From the NCBI GenBank assembly GCA_024275485.1, contig JAJRZA010000075.1:1-32879 (forward strand): DNA of 32,879 bases. Direction: 5' to 3'. Both the position numbers and the translations under genes were made by a program. Origin of the DNA: Candidatus Krumholzibacteriota bacterium (lineage in GTDB: Bacteria; Krumholzibacteriota; Krumholzibacteriia; LZORAL124-64-63). Shown piece by piece: positions 9,334 to 16,483 of this stretch (its first letter is position 1; each line of letters opens with the position of its first letter). Below the pieces are notes generated by a model. The model saw only the letters and a program-made list of their open reading frames with translations, did not search any database and was not told the origin of the DNA.

Positions 9334-12261
9334 ATGGCCTTCGTTGAAACACTTATTTTTGGAACCCCTGTCGGCAGCCCCGGTTCAGCCCCGGAAATTC
9401 TCGGGCGTTCAAACGGGATCAACCAGGATCTGGCAGAAGAAATTGTCCGGTTGTGCACGGGATGGGGACAACCACCGTCGGGGGAGAATCCACGGCCGGT
9501 TTTCATGTCGTTTCCCTTGAAGTCAAGAAGCAGCAGGGCATCCAGTGGCGCCAATGTCGTGATCAAGGTGGAAGCGGGAACCCATCTCAGTTTCCAGGCG
9601 GTGGTAATTGCCGGATCAGACTATGCAGCCTTTGGCTACAATCCCTTTGCCCTTGCCGAAGCGGGAGCGTTTCCTGCCTGGGATCCGATGGCCATTACCG
9701 GCCGCCGAACCCTGAATCCCAACTCGGGTCCACTTCTTGTTAACCCTCCGCCATCATCTGAAGATGTGGGACTGATCGACGAGGCCCTTCACCAGATCCT
9801 GGCCTCCCATAAATTGTATCTGCCCATTGAACAAGCCTCCGACGATAGCGATCGTTGTTTGGCTCTGCTGTTGGAAGTGATCCCGGAAGCACTGAAGAAA
9901 CAGTTGCGTTTTGCCTCCTTCGCACCGAGTCCGGCCAACAACTACCATCTGGCTGCCACCACCACCGAGGGGTGTGAATTTTCCGGATGGAAACGCCTGA
10001 TGATGACATTGGTGGGTGGAGCCTTGTCTGAGAATCTGGAGAAATATGTCAAAAAAGTCAGGGATTGTCTGGCTTTTGGCGACGTCGGAGTATTGTGGGC
10101 AGAGAACAGGCAGTTAACCCTCGGGGCAAAACCAAAAGATCCAGGAAACACGGCCATTCCCCGTTCCCGGACGGCATCGGTGAACCAAGTGATTCCTGCG
10201 GCGGCGACAACCGTTGCAAGCTCCGGTCCAAAGAGCCATCCCCAGGTCGGACTTTCGTCGCCCAGGTCAACTATCAGGGAAAAATCACCCAGGGAAGTTC
10301 CTCAACTGGCGCACTTGCGAGGTGGACGCCGTCAACTTTCCGGAGCGGTTGTGGCTTTGCTTGTCCTGGTCCTGACAGTAGGTGGTGGGTGGACCTATTT
10401 GGAATTTTTCCATGGCGGCGGCATCCTCTGGCAGAATTTGATTTCCTGGCATTGGTTTGCTGGTGACCAGACCGAAACCCGGGTGGCTTCTCTTCTGGAG
10501 GTGCCCAATGTTGGGGCTGTTTACAACAAGCAAGTCACGAGAATTCATCTGGGGGGAATGATCCTGGGTTTGAACTCGGAAACGGACCAGCGCCGCGGTT
10601 TGGTTCAGTTGAAAAGTGAAGCCGCAGTTCCCTTGTTGCAGCAGGTGGATTTGTTCCTGGAATTGGCTGCTGGTGGAATCAGGCAGGGGAAACGGCCGGA
10701 CCGGGAAAGTGAACGTTTGCGCTCTCTGACGGTTCAAGGGCAGGGTCTGGCTGTGGAATTGGATCGCCTTGAACTGGCTTGGCACAGCTTGTCCCTGGCA
10801 GTGAACTGGCGGGATTTGGGAAGTTTGTCCGACTCCGCCGTATTTGCTCGCCGGGACTCCCTGCAAAAAGTATCGGCTGCTTCCCTGCGTGTTGCCGCCG
10901 GTGACATGAAATTTGGGCATCGGCGGAAAAGATTGCTCTATTCCCTGGAGCAGACCAAAGGCATGAGGCAGTTGCTTTCACTTTTCCAGGCCAACCAATG
11001 GTCAGATCAGTGGGGCAAGCAATTGTATGGGGCTGCGGAGGCCGTATCGCCTTCGGCAAGTCCAATGACCAGGGCCTACCGGAACAGCGCTTTTTCCCTG
11101 GTCCGTCTGAAAAATGCCGAACATCTGCCTGCTTTTGAAGCCGGGGCGTTTGCTGACCAGGTGAAAAAAGGAATTTGGCTCTGTCCGGAAGTGGCAGACA
11201 TTTTGCCTGGATTGCGCAAACAGGTGGGTAAATTTGGCCACAACGACGCGCCACCTCTGTTGGCAGGCACTCTGGCTCTGTACAAGATTCTGGAGGACCC
11301 GGAGCCCACCGTGGGTGATCTGGCAGTGGGGAATATTGCCATGGAGCAAATGCATGATAACGCCGCAGTGCGGTTTGATCCCGCCGCATATGAAAATTAT
11401 CTGCAACGATTGCGATATCAGGCCCTGCAGGAATGTGTTCGGATGGGGAAGTCGTGTTCGGCCCTTGGTGATGAAGATGCCTTGGCCAATCTGGAATCAT
11501 TTGCCCAGATCAAATCCCAAGGCCTGAACGGGGATGAGTGGGCCGCCTGGTCCGATCAGCAGAATGATCCTTTCCTGAAAAGATGGGCCCATTATGAAAC
11601 TGGCAGGGTCCAACAGATCCTTCAGGCCAAGATGTATGAATTTGATGGCATTTGGCAAGTTGTGTGGACTCAGGTGGAGCAGCTAAGGGTCTTGGCATCA
11701 CAAGGCGAGGACTGGTCGGCGAAATGGGTGTCGCTGGACAAGGAACTGAATGCAGGGTTGGCCGCAGGCAAGGCTTTGGCGGGCCAGGGGGCCTTTGTTT
11801 CCCGGCGAATCGAAGATCTGCAAAACCTCCGGGGTTCATTGGATAAATCCCGTCCATTGGACCTGGGGGCGGTGACTGTTCGTTTGGATCAGGATCGTTT
11901 GAAAAACCCCGTCGAAGTATTTTTTGAATTCCGAATTCTTCCCCAGGGCAGGATCCAGCGCAGTCAACCATTTACCATCGGCCCGGCTGCACCCGCAGGC
12001 AGTGGCTGGGTTGGAACCGTTGTTTTGGATAGAAAATCCAATCTGGCTTGCTGGGCAGGATTTCAGGGTTCAGTGCGTATGGTGAATGGTGGTCGCAAAT
12101 TGTTGACGGTGGATTACCCCTCGTTGGGTGACGGTGTTGGGCCCGGTGCCCTGATCAGGCCCAGATCTGTCCCGGGTGGAAGCCTGAGCATAAAAACAGG
12201 CGACAGCTGGTGGCGCGACCTCCAGTTGCCGGACCAATCCGATGGAGCAGGGGCCTCGTAA
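9334..12261 (+). CDS. Large single-pass membrane protein of unknown function
   Basis: This 975-residue protein is not one I recognise with confidence. Residues ~1-300 form a globular cytoplasmic part containing ILGRSNGINQDLAEEIVRLC, FQAVVIAGSDYAAFGYNPFALAEAG and LLLEVIPEALKKQLRFASFAPSP. The order 'RS-x-GI ... NPF-x-L' loosely recalls GTPase-associated GAP1-N-type domains, which is only a hint. A basic, Ser/Pro-rich linker (~265-330) leads to one membrane helix at ~337-358 (GAVVALLVLVLTVGGGWTYL). The remaining ~610 residues are mostly helical, Leu/Ala/Gln-rich and presumably periplasmic, ending in a beta-rich segment. Start: ATG at 9334 with GGAG 6 nt upstream; an upstream open extension to 9226 overlaps the preceding terminator and is rejected. 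A strong terminator at 12298 separates it from the next gene. Confidence 0.8.
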   Translation: MAFVETLIFGTPVGSPGSAPEILGRSNGINQDLAEEIVRLCTGWGQPPSGENPRPVFMSFPLKSRSSRASSGANVVIKVEAGTHLSFQAVVIAGSDYAAFGYNPFALAEAGAFPAWDPMAITGRRTLNPNSGPLLVNPPPSSEDVGLIDEALHQILASHKLYLPIEQASDDSDRCLALLLEVIPEALKKQLRFASFAPSPANNYHLAATTTEGCEFSGWKRLMMTLVGGALSENLEKYVKKVRDCLAFGDVGVLWAENRQLTLGAKPKDPGNTAIPRSRTASVNQVIPAAATTVASSGPKSHPQVGLSSPRSTIREKSPREVPQLAHLRGGRRQLSGAVVALLVLVLTVGGGWTYLEFFHGGGILWQNLISWHWFAGDQTETRVASLLEVPNVGAVYNKQVTRIHLGGMILGLNSETDQRRGLVQLKSEAAVPLLQQVDLFLELAAGGIRQGKRPDRESERLRSLTVQGQGLAVELDRLELAWHSLSLAVNWRDLGSLSDSAVFARRDSLQKVSAASLRVAAGDMKFGHRRKRLLYSLEQTKGMRQLLSLFQANQWSDQWGKQLYGAAEAVSPSASPMTRAYRNSAFSLVRLKNAEHLPAFEAGAFADQVKKGIWLCPEVADILPGLRKQVGKFGHNDAPPLLAGTLALYKILEDPEPTVGDLAVGNIAMEQMHDNAAVRFDPAAYENYLQRLRYQALQECVRMGKSCSALGDEDALANLESFAQIKSQGLNGDEWAAWSDQQNDPFLKRWAHYETGRVQQILQAKMYEFDGIWQVVWTQVEQLRVLASQGEDWSAKWVSLDKELNAGLAAGKALAGQGAFVSRRIEDLQNLRGSLDKSRPLDLGAVTVRLDQDRLKNPVEVFFEFRILPQGRIQRSQPFTIGPAAPAGSGWVGTVVLDRKSNLACWAGFQGSVRMVNGGRKLLTVDYPSLGDGVGPGALIRPRSVPGGSLSIKTGDSWWRDLQLPDQSDGAGAS

Positions 12262-12297
12262 ATAAGTGGAAACCTTATTCTGTGTTTCCTCGTAGAA

Positions 12298-12330
12298 AGG
12301 GGACGGAAATTATCCGTCCCCTCTATTTTG
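12298..12330 (+). terminator. Rho-independent terminator after the 975-residue protein gene
   Basis: AGGGGACGGA (12298-12307) and TCCGTCCCCT (12313-12322) form a perfect 10-bp stem with loop AATTA. CTATTTTG follows. The hairpin ends just 12 nt before the next gene's ribosome binding site, so it could also act as an attenuator between the two genes. Confidence 0.75.
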
Positions 12331-12344
12331 GACCGGAGGCCCTC

Positions 12345-12866
12345 ATGAAAAATCCAACCAAACCGACTTTTTCCACCATGTTGGCCCTGGTCCTGTTGAC
12401 CTTGGCAGCTACCGGGGTCCTTGCCGATGACAAAATAACCTTTAAAAACGGCCAGGTGACCATAGAAAGCCAGGACAACGAAAAGCTGATCGTTCTGAAC
12501 ACCGATGGCATGCAAGACATGATTTCGGAAATCCTTCACGAAGCCATGGATGACATGAACGATGTCATGGCCGAGTTGGACGATATGCAGCTGGAAATTC
12601 GCCTGGGTGAAGACAACCAGCTGAGCGTTGAAACCGATAATCAAATGTGGGAAATGAATCTGGACCTGATCTTCAGGGAAATCGGCACGGCTCTGGAAAC
12701 GGCCTTCGAGGAAATTGATACGGACGGCTGGACTGCCCATGAACGTTGGGAAATTGATACCACCGACGACGATTTCAGCGATGAAGACCTGGTTGAGGAA
12801 TTGGATCGTCTGAAAGACGAATTGCGAAAACTCCAAAAGGAAATGGAAGCCCTGAAGGAGCTCTAG
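12345..12866 (+). CDS. Small acidic exported protein with C-terminal coiled coil
   Basis: This 173-residue protein has a clear signal peptide (MKNPTKPTFSTMLALVLLTLAATGVLA, cleavage near residue 27). A very acidic mature part rich in Asp, Glu and Met follows (for example EAMDDMNDVMAELDDMQLE). The C-terminus is a heptad-like coiled coil (EDLVEELDRLKDELRKLQKEMEALKEL). I recognise no family. The start is well supported: GGAGG sits 5 nt before ATG 12345. It may be co-expressed with the upstream 975-residue protein if the hairpin at 12298 is leaky, but nothing else ties them together. A terminator follows at 12920. Confidence 0.78.
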   Translation: MKNPTKPTFSTMLALVLLTLAATGVLADDKITFKNGQVTIESQDNEKLIVLNTDGMQDMISEILHEAMDDMNDVMAELDDMQLEIRLGEDNQLSVETDNQMWEMNLDLIFREIGTALETAFEEIDTDGWTAHERWEIDTTDDDFSDEDLVEELDRLKDELRKLQKEMEALKEL

Positions 12867-12961: not shown

Positions 12962-13186
12962 TTACCGCCGGGTGTCAATCAACCCAAGGATTTCATCCGT
13001 CTCGGGAAAACGATCTTCGGCTTTCTTGGAAAAGACCAGATCTCCATCGATTTCCACTTCAAAAACTCCGCCACCCGAAGCGATGAGTTCACTTTCCTGG
13101 CCACAATGTTTTTTGATGGCGGCCGCCAGACTGATGGCCGTTGGTTTATAGTTTCAAACCTGGCAGTATTCGATGCTGATGCGCAT
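12962..13186 (-). CDS. SelW/Rdx-family selenoprotein candidate (in-frame UGA = Sec11)
   Basis: Reading from ATG 13186 to TAA at 12962 gives 74 residues if the TGA at 13156-13154 (codon 11) is read as selenocysteine. The N-terminus is MRISIEYCQVUNYKPTA, the Rdx/SelW redox motif Y-C-x-x-U-x-Y-x-P-x-A. The rest continues with the family C-terminal block GGGVFEVEIDGDLVFSKK and RFPETDEIL. Length and domain order match bacterial SelW-like proteins, thioredoxin-fold thiol/selenol redox proteins. The frame is otherwise open on both sides of the UGA, and no in-frame Met follows it closely, so the UGA is internal to a conserved protein. AGGAG lies 4 nt before the ATG and overlaps the stop of the upstream dehydrogenase gene (7-bp gap), indicating an operon. 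The selenocysteine machinery itself (selA, selB, selC, selD) is not in this window. If the genome lacks it, this is a nonsense-mutated Cys homologue. Confidence 0.85.
13120..13140 (-). promoter_or_regulatory. Candidate bacterial SECIS hairpin
   Basis: On the mRNA, 14 nt after the UGA, CGGCC can pair with GGCCG (5 bp, 11-nt loop). Alternatively GCCA can pair with TGGC around a 6-nt loop. The apical segment reads CAGTCTGG, similar to the AGGTCT-type loop of the E. coli fdhF element, and a loop G lies 23 nt after the UGA. Position and size fit bacterial SECIS elements, but the G is not within the first two loop bases, so the match to the usual rule is imperfect. Confidence 0.45.
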
Positions 13187-13193
13187 GTCGCTC

Positions 13194-14369
13194 CTAAAAC
13201 TTTATCAGGGGCTTCGGCCAGGCTTTCAGGGTGTCTTCAAAGGACTCGGGATCGAATTCATTGATGTGCACCACGGAGCTTTCGCCGCCACCGAGAATGA
13301 TGTTGCTGATTTTATCCTGGATGCCGTTGGATTGGTCTTCCAGGAGATTTCTCCCAATATACCAGGTTTCGAATATTCTGCGACCAATCACGCTGTGCAG
13401 GGTGATGCCGTTGACGATCAGCCGATCGAAGGCCTGGATGTGGAAGTTGCCCTGTTTCAAACCGAACAGGATGACTTCGCCACCGCGACGAGTGGATTGG
13501 ATTGCGTTGTTCACGCTGCTGTTGAAGCCGGCCATTTCCATGGAAACATCCGCTCCGATGCCGCCAAAGGCCTGGCGAACCTCCGCGACCAGGGCTTTGT
13601 CGGCGCTCCAGGCGTGGGGGGCCGATCTGGTGAGGTCGAGCTGGATGACATCGTCGGCACCCAGCTGTTTGGCCATCTGCACGTTGGCTGGATTCGGTTC
13701 AATGCCGATGACTCTGGTGGCGCCGAGGGCCCGGGCAACCATGATCACAAAAAGGCCGATGGTGCCGCAGCCGAACACGGCCACGGATTTTCCACGCAGA
13801 TCGGCAGTGGTGCAGGCATGAACTGCGTTGCCGAATGGTTCCTGAAGAGCGGCCACCCTCATTTTGATTTTGCGGGGATCGGTGGGCCACAAAACATTGG
13901 CCGGCAGCTTGAGGTATTCGGCAAAACAGCCGTCTCGACCGATGCCGATGATCACATCCTGACTGCAGATGTGGGTCTGACCAATGCGGCACTGGTAGCA
14001 GTTGCCACAAATGATATGACTTTCAGTGGAGACGATGTTCTTGGGTAGGTACCCATATCGGGAGGTGACCTTGGAACCAACCCCGACAATCTCCCCGACC
14101 ATTTCATGGCCGATGATGCGGGTGGTGCTCTTTTGCTTCTTGAGGCTGTCGAAGATCATGCCCTTGAAAGCGGTGCGATTCCATATGCCCCGGTCGCTGC
14201 CGCAAAAACCGGCGTAGACAACCTTGACCAGGACATTTTCCGAGTCCTGAGGATCCTTCTGCTCATCCAGGACAGGGGTGGGCATTTCCCGCATTTGGAA
14301 GCCGCGGGTTTTGTCCCAGGGCATGCTCGACTTGTCGTAGACAAGGCATTTCATCATCTGCGCGGCCAC
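13194..14369 (-). CDS. Zinc-dependent medium-chain dehydrogenase (threonine/sorbitol dehydrogenase-like)
   Basis: This 391-residue MDR-superfamily enzyme oxidises a secondary alcohol with NAD(P). The catalytic zinc ligands appear as Cys56 (GFCGSD), His88-Glu89 (IIGHEMVGEIVGVG) and Glu177 (LQEPFGNAVHA). The structural zinc lobe is C121-x2-C124-x2-C127-x7-C135. The Rossmann motif is VFGCGTIGLF (200-205) with Glu after strand two (VIGIEPNP), which favours NAD over NADP. EPFGNAVH is most like L-threonine 3-dehydrogenase, but the substrate is not certain. I chose GTG at 14369 because GGAGG lies 7 nt upstream; the ATG pair at 14357/14354 is too far from it. Its stop overlaps the ribosome site of the SelW-type gene, so the two are translationally linked. 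Confidence 0.88.
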   Translation of the reverse strand: MAAQMMKCLVYDKSSMPWDKTRGFQMREMPTPVLDEQKDPQDSENVLVKVVYAGFCGSDRGIWNRTAFKGMIFDSLKKQKSTTRIIGHEMVGEIVGVGSKVTSRYGYLPKNIVSTESHIICGNCYQCRIGQTHICSQDVIIGIGRDGCFAEYLKLPANVLWPTDPRKIKMRVAALQEPFGNAVHACTTADLRGKSVAVFGCGTIGLFVIMVARALGATRVIGIEPNPANVQMAKQLGADDVIQLDLTRSAPHAWSADKALVAEVRQAFGGIGADVSMEMAGFNSSVNNAIQSTRRGGEVILFGLKQGNFHIQAFDRLIVNGITLHSVIGRRIFETWYIGRNLLEDQSNGIQDKISNIILGGGESSVVHINEFDPESFEDTLKAWPKPLIKF

Positions 14370-14404
14370 GATGCAACCTCCGCGTCCGGAAATTCTGGAC
14401 GAAG

Positions 14405-14434
14405 AAAAAGGACCAGCCGCCATCGGGCGGTCCC
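14405..14434 (-). terminator. Rho-independent terminator behind the ParA-type gene
   Basis: On the minus strand GGACC-GCC ... GGC-GGTCC forms a stem (forward 14410-14414 with 14429-14433 plus inner GC pairs). TTTTT (forward 14405-14409) follows. It lies between the ParA-type gene and the dehydrogenase gene, so the dehydrogenase probably has its own promoter. Confidence 0.7.
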
Positions 14435-14462: not shown

Positions 14463-15686
14463 TCAATTTGGTCGGTGGTTCGAATCCGGATCGCCCGAAT
14501 GGAAGTCCGTATCCCATTCGTCCCACGTCTTCCTTGAAGAATGTGACTGATTCTCTTCCTCGGCAAGAAGATCATCCAGGGAAACCATTTCGGGTTCGTG
14601 GGGCTCTTCGTAGTCAGGGATATCAGGAGCAGTTGCCGGGGCCCCTCCCAACTCGGCAAGGAAGCGGGTTAAATCGCCCAAACCATCCAAACTTTCAGTC
14701 GAAGCACGACTTTCCTTGCTGAACGATGAATCGGAAACAATTTCCTGGGTAGTTTTCAAGGGTCTGAAGGAATGATCCTCAGGAAAGTTGTTGCCATCCA
14801 GAAAACGTTGCACCAGTTCATCCGCCAGGTCGAAATAGGCGCGGCTGCCTTTGCTGCGGCGGTCGTAGATCACGGTGGGTTTAGCCTTCAGGGCCATTTC
14901 ACTGAGGCGGGTGTTGCGGGGGATCCCTACCTTGAACATCCACTGGCCGAAATCTTCGTCAACACGGGCTGCCACGTGACGGCCCATGCGGGTTTGGCTG
15001 CTGGACATGGTCAGGAAGAGGCCTTCCAGGGCCAGGGGCATGACCAGGGTGGTGGTGGGGCTCTGGTCTTCATCCTGATTGGGAGTATTCGGAAAAAATC
15101 TATTTCGGAAGGTATCAACAAACTCCAGCAAGGATTCCACTGATCCGCGGCAAAGTTCTTCTGCCTGCACGGGAACCAGATAACTGTCGGAAGCCAGCAG
15201 GGCGGCCTGGGTCGCTGCCCCCAGACTGGGCGGGCAATCGATGAGGATGGTATCGTAAAGGTTGCGAGCGCGGTCGATTTCAGCAGCGAACAGATCCGCT
15301 TTCAGGGTCATGTTTTCCAGATAGAGTTCTTCTTCTTCCAGGGAGGATATGTTGGGGGAGAGGAAGAAGAGTCCATCGAGAGACGATGGCTGGGCCAGAT
15401 CCGTCAGGGAACCATGACCTGCAAAAACCTGATTGAGTCCCGATACGAGGTCATCGGATCCTTCAGCCAGGGTACGGCATATTCCACAATGGGGGTCGGT
15501 GCCCACGATCAGCACGTTGTGACCGGACAGGGCCAAGGCCGCACCCAGATTAACAGCCGATGTGGTTTTCCCCACACCACCCTTGCGGCTGACCAGGCTG
15601 ATGACCCGGCCTTCCACGGTGTTCCAGGGAGTGCGTCGTTTGGGGGCGGCCTGGGGTTCAGCCCCCGGGACTAGAGTATCGTCCAT
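14463..15686 (-). CDS. ParA/MinD-family ATPase, stand-alone
   Basis: This 407-residue P-loop ATPase has a deviant Walker A motif KGGVGKTT (35-42) with the extra Lys typical of ParA/Soj/MinD. Walker A' is VLIVGTDPHCGI and Walker B is YDTILIDCPPSL (~144-155). Later ParA blocks are VPVQAEELCRGSVESLLEFVD and IPRNTRLSEMALKAKP. Proteins of this type form ATP-dependent dimers on DNA and position chromosomes, plasmids or protein clusters. About 110 C-terminal residues after FDLADELVQRFLDG are acidic, low in complexity and not part of the fold. No parB-like gene is adjacent, so this is an orphan ParA and need not be the chromosome-segregation copy. ATG at 15686 has GGAG 7 nt upstream. Confidence 0.87.
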   Translation of the reverse strand: MDDTLVPGAEPQAAPKRRTPWNTVEGRVISLVSRKGGVGKTTSAVNLGAALALSGHNVLIVGTDPHCGICRTLAEGSDDLVSGLNQVFAGHGSLTDLAQPSSLDGLFFLSPNISSLEEEELYLENMTLKADLFAAEIDRARNLYDTILIDCPPSLGAATQAALLASDSYLVPVQAEELCRGSVESLLEFVDTFRNRFFPNTPNQDEDQSPTTTLVMPLALEGLFLTMSSSQTRMGRHVAARVDEDFGQWMFKVGIPRNTRLSEMALKAKPTVIYDRRSKGSRAYFDLADELVQRFLDGNNFPEDHSFRPLKTTQEIVSDSSFSKESRASTESLDGLGDLTRFLAELGGAPATAPDIPDYEEPHEPEMVSLDDLLAEEENQSHSSRKTWDEWDTDFHSGDPDSNHRPN

Positions 15687-15765
15687 GATGTTTCTCCTTG
15701 ATGTCTGTCGCAACAATACAATGAAGTGAGGAAAAAATACCCTACCCAAGGGGAGCTGATCAAGG

Positions 15766-15800
15766 AAAAAACCACCCATTCAGGTTCATTTGCCCTGAAT
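15766..15800 (-). terminator. Likely intrinsic terminator behind elbB
   Basis: On the minus strand ATTCAGG pairs with CCTGAAT (forward 15794-15800 with 15778-15784). GGGTGG and then TTTTTT (forward 15766-15771) follow. The U-run begins 6 nt after the stem, a little far for an ideal terminator. Confidence 0.5.
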
Positions 15801-15817: not shown

Positions 15818-16483
15818 TCATTTTGGGCATAGCCGCAGCAGTTTTTCCACAAAACCAATGGCGCCGGTAAAGACATCTCCAATGTTGTCGGCCAGCATGT
15901 AGGCCGGAGTGGTGACCATGAGGTTGGTTTGGTCCACCACCGTTTCAGCTACTTGGCAATTTTTGTGATTGGCACCCATGTTCTGCACCAGGGTGGCGGT
16001 GGCCGGGTCGTTGCCTATGGTCAATTCCGGGTGCAGGTCGGAACCGAAAATCCTGGCCAGGATGACCGGGGCGATGCACATGGCGCCAATGGGTTTGCCT
16101 ATGGTGTTGGCTTCCCGCAAAAATGCTTCCACTTCCGGATGCACCGTGCACTGGTCGCCTTCGGTGGCGAAGTTGCAAAGGTTTTTGGCGGCGCCAAAAC
16201 CGCCCGGCAGAACGATGGCATCGAATTCAAGGGGATCGAGGTCGGCCAGGGGTTTGATTTCGCCACGCATGAGGCGGGCTGATTCGGTCAGGATGTCGCG
16301 GCTCTCTCCGGCCGCAGGTTCGCCCGCCAGGTGGTTGATGACGTGCATCTGTGGGCCACTGGGGGCGCAGGCGGTAATCTGGGCATCGGCACGATGCAAG
16401 GCCAACAGGGCCGCGCAAACTTCGTGGATTTCCGACCCGTCGTAAACACCGCACCCGCTGAGTATGAAGGCAACCTTCTTCAT
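15818..16483 (-). CDS. elbB: ElbB-type DJ-1/PfpI family protein (glyoxalase-like)
   Basis: This 221-residue protein is close in length to E. coli ElbB. It carries the family blocks VAFILSGCGVYDGSEIHEV near the N-terminus, ESARLMRGEIKPLADLDPLEFDAIVLPGGFGAAKNL, and GKPIGAMCIAPVILA with the nucleophile-elbow Cys. It ends with the EVVVDQTN-like segment (ETVVDQTNLMVTTPAYMLADNIGDVFTGA). ElbB has glyoxalase III-like activity and was first noted for an effect on isoprenoid synthesis. ATG at 16483 is preceded by AAAGGA about 8 nt upstream. It is divergent from the ACT-domain gene across a 238-bp gap that contains three 11-bp tandem repeats. Confidence 0.92.
   Translation of the reverse strand: MKKVAFILSGCGVYDGSEIHEVCAALLALHRADAQITACAPSGPQMHVINHLAGEPAAGESRDILTESARLMRGEIKPLADLDPLEFDAIVLPGGFGAAKNLCNFATEGDQCTVHPEVEAFLREANTIGKPIGAMCIAPVILARIFGSDLHPELTIGNDPATATLVQNMGANHKNCQVAETVVDQTNLMVTTPAYMLADNIGDVFTGAIGFVEKLLRLCPK

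Follow-up and report, generated by a model that had tools for sequence, protein, structure and literature searches.

The 32,879-nt stretch of DNA analysed here (the window), contig 59 of a Candidatus Krumholzibacteriia MAG (3.98 Mb, 106 contigs, 96% complete), very probably carries a functional selW-like selenoprotein gene, in which selenocysteine (Sec) is inserted at codon 11 of a small Rdx redox protein. This selenoprotein gene is genuine and belongs to the SelW-like family, which has long been known. The SelW-like CxxU selenoproteins of bacteria have been catalogued (PMC1088965, PMC1794560, PMC13188914), rank first or near the top in abundance in marine samples (PMC1088965, PMC9312934), and, as PF10262 proteins with CxxU, appear in a 2026 review under 'predicted with high confidence' (PMC13188914). 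The family itself is therefore not new, and what is new is confined to the lineage and to a conserved dehydrogenase neighbor.

Read directly on the minus strand from 13186 to 12962, the gene consists of ten codons from the ATG, TGA as codon 11, 63 further codons, and the stop TAA. The initial annotation described this frame, including its AGGAG, exactly as it is read here and gave the correct coordinates; it left the strand unstated, and translation of the same interval on the plus strand gives a meaningless, unrelated sequence. With TGA as U, the product is MRISIEYCQVUNYKPTAISLAAAIKKHCGQESELIASGGGVFEVEIDGDLVFSKKAEDRFPETDEILGLIDTRR, and the UGA does fall, as proposed, at the second redox position of the SelW motif. 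A terminator-like site inside the gene (13083-13068, minus strand) was rejected, as it did not rise above shuffle expectation. Features of the locus are collected in Table 1.

Table 1. Features of the selW-like locus, in window coordinates.
Feature	Position	Strand	Remarks
selW-like (Rdx) selenoprotein gene	12962..13186	-	74 residues, Sec at 11; Pfam, NCBIfam, homologues
bSECIS-like hairpin	13120..13140	-	nt 17-37 from the U of UGA; -10.7 kcal/mol
In-frame UGA, read as Sec	13154..13156	-	second redox position, Cys8-x-x-Sec11 (C8-Q-V-U11)
Shine-Dalgarno AGGAG	13191..13195	-	4 nt before the selW ATG; overlaps dehydrogenase stop TAG 13196-13194
Zinc-binding dehydrogenase, L-threonine-dehydrogenase-like	13194..14423	-	directly upstream of selW; conserved neighbor in family f1
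ParA/MinD-type ATPase	14463..15779	-	next gene upstream; often upstream in relatives too; no functional tie to selW claimed
ElbB-type glyoxalase	15818-16483	-	NF008747, 289.9 bits vs 180; further upstream than the ParA-like and dehydrogenase genes

Assignment to the SelW/Rdx family, as first suggested, is borne out by profile matches far beyond chance: the product matches Pfam Rdx PF10262 over residues 2-71 with an E-value of 1.2e-20 (73.9 bits vs a cut-off of 22.6), NCBIfam NF041051 (SelT/SelW/SelH family (seleno)protein) with 95.8 bits against a curated cut-off of 88, and TIGR02174 with 64 bits against a cut-off of 34.2. This gene is the only Rdx match in the host genome. A thioredoxin-like fold is predicted from matches to solved Rdx/SelW chains, and the product matches two proteins of the same Rdx family, MIEN1/C17orf37 (PDB 2ljk) at E 1.4e-11 and selenoprotein W (PDB 2npb) at E 8.6e-3; where MIEN1 has CxxC (EYCEPC in the alignment), the window protein has CxxU. 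With the bacterial SelW-like proteins (SELENOW-like; PF10262/TIGR02174/NF041051) it shares its length, the CxxU, and the GGxFEV...D..L.FSKK...RFP block, and the genes share a bSECIS directly downstream of the UGA (PMC1088965, PMC13188914), unlike eukaryotic genes, in which the SECIS lies in the 3′ UTR (PMC1088965). The window gene differs from these only in its lineage, Krumholzibacteriia, and in its fixed zinc dehydrogenase neighborhood. Standard calling does split the frame, as had been anticipated, and ordinary gene callers can miss selW, making the corrected gene model useful; the further expectation of a lost gene holds only in part, since NF041051 models this very (seleno)protein.

All four components of the Sec machinery that the initial annotation proposed to look for, selA, selB, selC (tRNA-Sec), and selD, are present in the host genome. 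The tRNA-Sec (G000:C51:92769-92862) scores 69.5 bits against an Rfam cut-off of 47 and is called by ARAGORN as tRNA-SeC with anticodon tca (UCA). The selB gene, a 666-aa frame, scores 330.6 bits against a cut-off of 242, selA scores 449.5 bits, and selD scores 366.5 bits and has one in-frame TGA of its own, reading SAGUAAK. Across the class Krumholzibacteriia, selA was found in 78 of 80 genomes.

The UGA is invariant in every homologue sampled. Rdx occurs in 49 of the 80 class genomes, and each of the 50 matches contains exactly one in-frame TGA. When a genome collection was scanned using a peptide pattern from which the Sec column was left out, 362 relatives were obtained, of which the best 80, from Planctomycetes, Acidobacteria, Zixiibacteriota, KSB1, Marinimicrobia, Deltaproteobacteria, and others, have TGA at that column without exception (80/80); Cys forms may occur among more distant relatives, beyond these 80. 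After removal of identical copies, TGA occupies the CxxU column in 109/109 homologues from many phyla (relatives being the best 80 of 362), which answers in favor of U the question, raised at the outset, of whether homologues have U or C there. One of these sequences, L070, was put in register, as an apparent GGT at its Sec column was due to a one-codon alignment shift and the real codon is TGA. Cys forms are known, with 7 Cys against 48 Sec among SelW-like proteins of the Sargasso Sea (PMC1088965), and few or no Cys homologues have been reported in Sec-using bacteria (PMC1794560), in agreement with the sample here. The poorly studied class Krumholzibacteriia includes members with a SelW that is predicted to contain Sec, which was never swapped for Cys in this sample.

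Codons downstream of the UGA are under purifying selection. In a comparison of this part of the window gene with that of its closest relative, 5 of 134 nonsynonymous sites and 13 of 40 synonymous sites have changed, a dN/dS of 0.09, and nine other pairs gave 0.11-0.49. Over the ten pairs (0.09-0.49), the downstream codons have thus not drifted without constraint; such drift in close relatives was what the initial annotation had named as counting against a selenoprotein.

A hairpin of the bSECIS type is conserved after the UGA. In the window it comprises 8 pairs with one internal mismatch and an apical loop GUC (13131-13129), closed by A-U and spaced 22 nt from the UGA. The published bSECIS model (PMC13188914) fits 99 of the 109 homologues (relatives again the best 80 of 362), as against 39.6 +/- 4.1 (maximum 48) after synonymous redraws. 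Two tests independent of the protein concern the stem and the loop, and their binomial and shuffle figures ignore relatedness and are therefore inflated in size. When both nt 21 and nt 33 are fourfold degenerate, they are paired in 89/94 sequences (shuffles: mean 53.3, maximum 66), using CG, GC, TA, AT, GT, and TG, so that these two positions co-vary while keeping a stem pair. The loop codon, when it encodes Gly, is GGT in 41/42 cases, a codon that makes up 19% of Gly codons elsewhere in the same genes, and, when it encodes Ser, is AGT in 51/52, compared with 6% of Ser codons elsewhere. The folding-energy signal of the whole element is modest: a 30-nt segment that begins 12 nt past the first base of the UGA folded more strongly than its synonymous permutations, with a mean z of -0.96 (s.e. 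0.14, n=30, none above +1), with -1.7 for the window sequence alone, and control windows further downstream had no comparable folding signal under the same permutations. The E. coli fdhF SECIS, a 40-mer verified against E. coli records that also passes the same bSECIS model, likewise presents an apical GGUCU in a hairpin just after the UGA. The commonest loop among the homologues is also GGUCU, whereas that of the window gene is AGUCU, and selW has a shorter stem than fdhF, with the loop set back from the UGA by roughly one more codon.

Other readings of the TGA were weighed against these data. CxxC Rdx proteins exist, as the matched solved Cys forms attest, and TGA is one base away from the Cys codons TGC and TGT, making it conceivable that a nonsense mutation or a sequencing error has interrupted an ordinary CxxC gene. 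This is already refuted by conservation of the TGA and by constraint on the codons after it, and must be considered highly improbable: the codon is fixed in all 109 non-identical homologues across many phyla (relatives being the best 80 of 362), purifying selection continues beyond it with no other stop in frame, and the Sec machinery is present in the host genome. A genome-wide reassignment of UGA, for example to Trp or Gly, is known from some bacteria and would make the TGA an ordinary sense codon, yet 6 of the 21 predicted genes in the window end in TGA, so reassignment is not the reason for the open frame; as residue 11 also lines up with Cys/Sec and tRNA-Sec, selA, selB, and selD are all encoded in the genome, the probability of this reading is vanishingly small.

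It might also be argued that UGA acts as a stop in practice, with the downstream frame rarely translated and the ten-codon peptide or the hairpin being what matters. Decoding that depends on a bSECIS is generally incomplete, and some 10-residue product is to be expected; however, the whole Rdx domain lies downstream of the UGA and is conserved at the protein level, and selection acts on the stem-loop and its GGU/AGU loop over and above the protein sequence, leaving very little likelihood for a peptide or hairpin function of this kind. Taken with tRNA-Sec, selA, selB, and selD, the invariant TGA (109/109, relatives being the best 80 of 362), the purifying selection, and the bSECIS-type hairpin, the UGA is almost certainly decoded as Sec, as the initial annotation had proposed, judging from sequence. 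Under this selenoprotein reading, SelB and tRNA-Sec, together with the mRNA hairpin right after the UGA, would lead the ribosome to insert Sec at codon 11, and the product would be a small Rdx (thioredoxin-fold) protein in which Cys8-Gln-Val-Sec11 forms a selenol/thiol redox center. The protein is predicted to have thiol/selenol oxidoreductase activity, with a putative role most likely in thiol-disulfide or peroxide defense, and possibly in protecting or regulating the co-encoded dehydrogenase.

The context of selW, with that dehydrogenase next to it, is less ordinary than the gene itself. Only 7 nt separate its stop TAG from the selW ATG (13186), and the overlap of the selW Shine-Dalgarno sequence with this stop suggests translational coupling, so the two genes are probably co-transcribed and translationally coupled. 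The dehydrogenase gene lies directly upstream of selW, with the UGA 40-94 nt after the end of the dehydrogenase alignment, in 35 of the 36 selW-bearing genomes of one bacterial family (f1), and in the 36th the contig extends only 85 nt upstream. The apparent absence of Rdx from a further f1 genome, G037, is explained by a contig that ends inside the gene, and the dehydrogenase-selW pair is present there with selW cut short (CRVUNYEPRAAGLAEA). Among the 80 class genomes searched for Rdx, the pair was not seen outside f1. A TDH-like zinc dehydrogenase occurs in 37 of 38 f1 genomes, and in families f2 and f8 it occurs without a neighboring selW. The best match of the upstream gene is L-threonine 3-dehydrogenase, tdh (NF003808, E 5.1e-74; PDB 2dfv, E 3.7e-51), and its profile scores lie below the tdh equivalog cut-offs (232.9 vs 458.35 bits and 249.2 vs 380), placing it outside the tdh equivalog.

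Because the two genes occur together in essentially every f1 member, and the selW ribosome-binding site overlaps the dehydrogenase stop in the window, it is conceivable, though on balance rather unlikely, that the Sec-containing SelW serves as a dedicated redox partner of the TDH-like zinc dehydrogenase in this Krumholzibacteriia family. SelW-Prx operons have been reported (PMC13188914), and a literature search on SelW and threonine dehydrogenase found no paper on a SelW-dehydrogenase operon. If such a partnership were true, bacterial SelW would gain a defined client enzyme, and a neighboring gene conserved over a whole family offers a testable lead to the function of bacterial SelW-like proteins, given as unknown in PMC13188914.

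On the other side of selW, a convergent gene on the plus strand (12210-12866) encodes an acidic protein with no Pfam match; an inverted repeat and a T-run lie in the 95 nt that separate its end from the selW stop. Elsewhere in the host genome, a sample yielded further candidate selenoproteins. Two AhpC/TSA-type domains have U-x-x-C motifs, FFANWUPVCGPEFSD at G000:C105:32887-33249 and FFANLUPVCGPEFSD at G000:C20:11393-11668; the former sits within a long frame, preceded by an Ig-like (HYDIN/ASH) domain and followed by a PNPFNP FlgD-like C-terminal domain, and appears to belong to a secreted selenoprotein whose tail is of the sorting type. A redoxin-like protein at G000:C57:42062-42415, with an apparent signal peptide, a GFGUGGC motif, and a PNPFNP tail, is another candidate secreted selenoprotein, and in a peroxiredoxin at G000:C53:1165-1545 (DFTPTUSMEIPG) Sec occupies what is likely the peroxidatic position.
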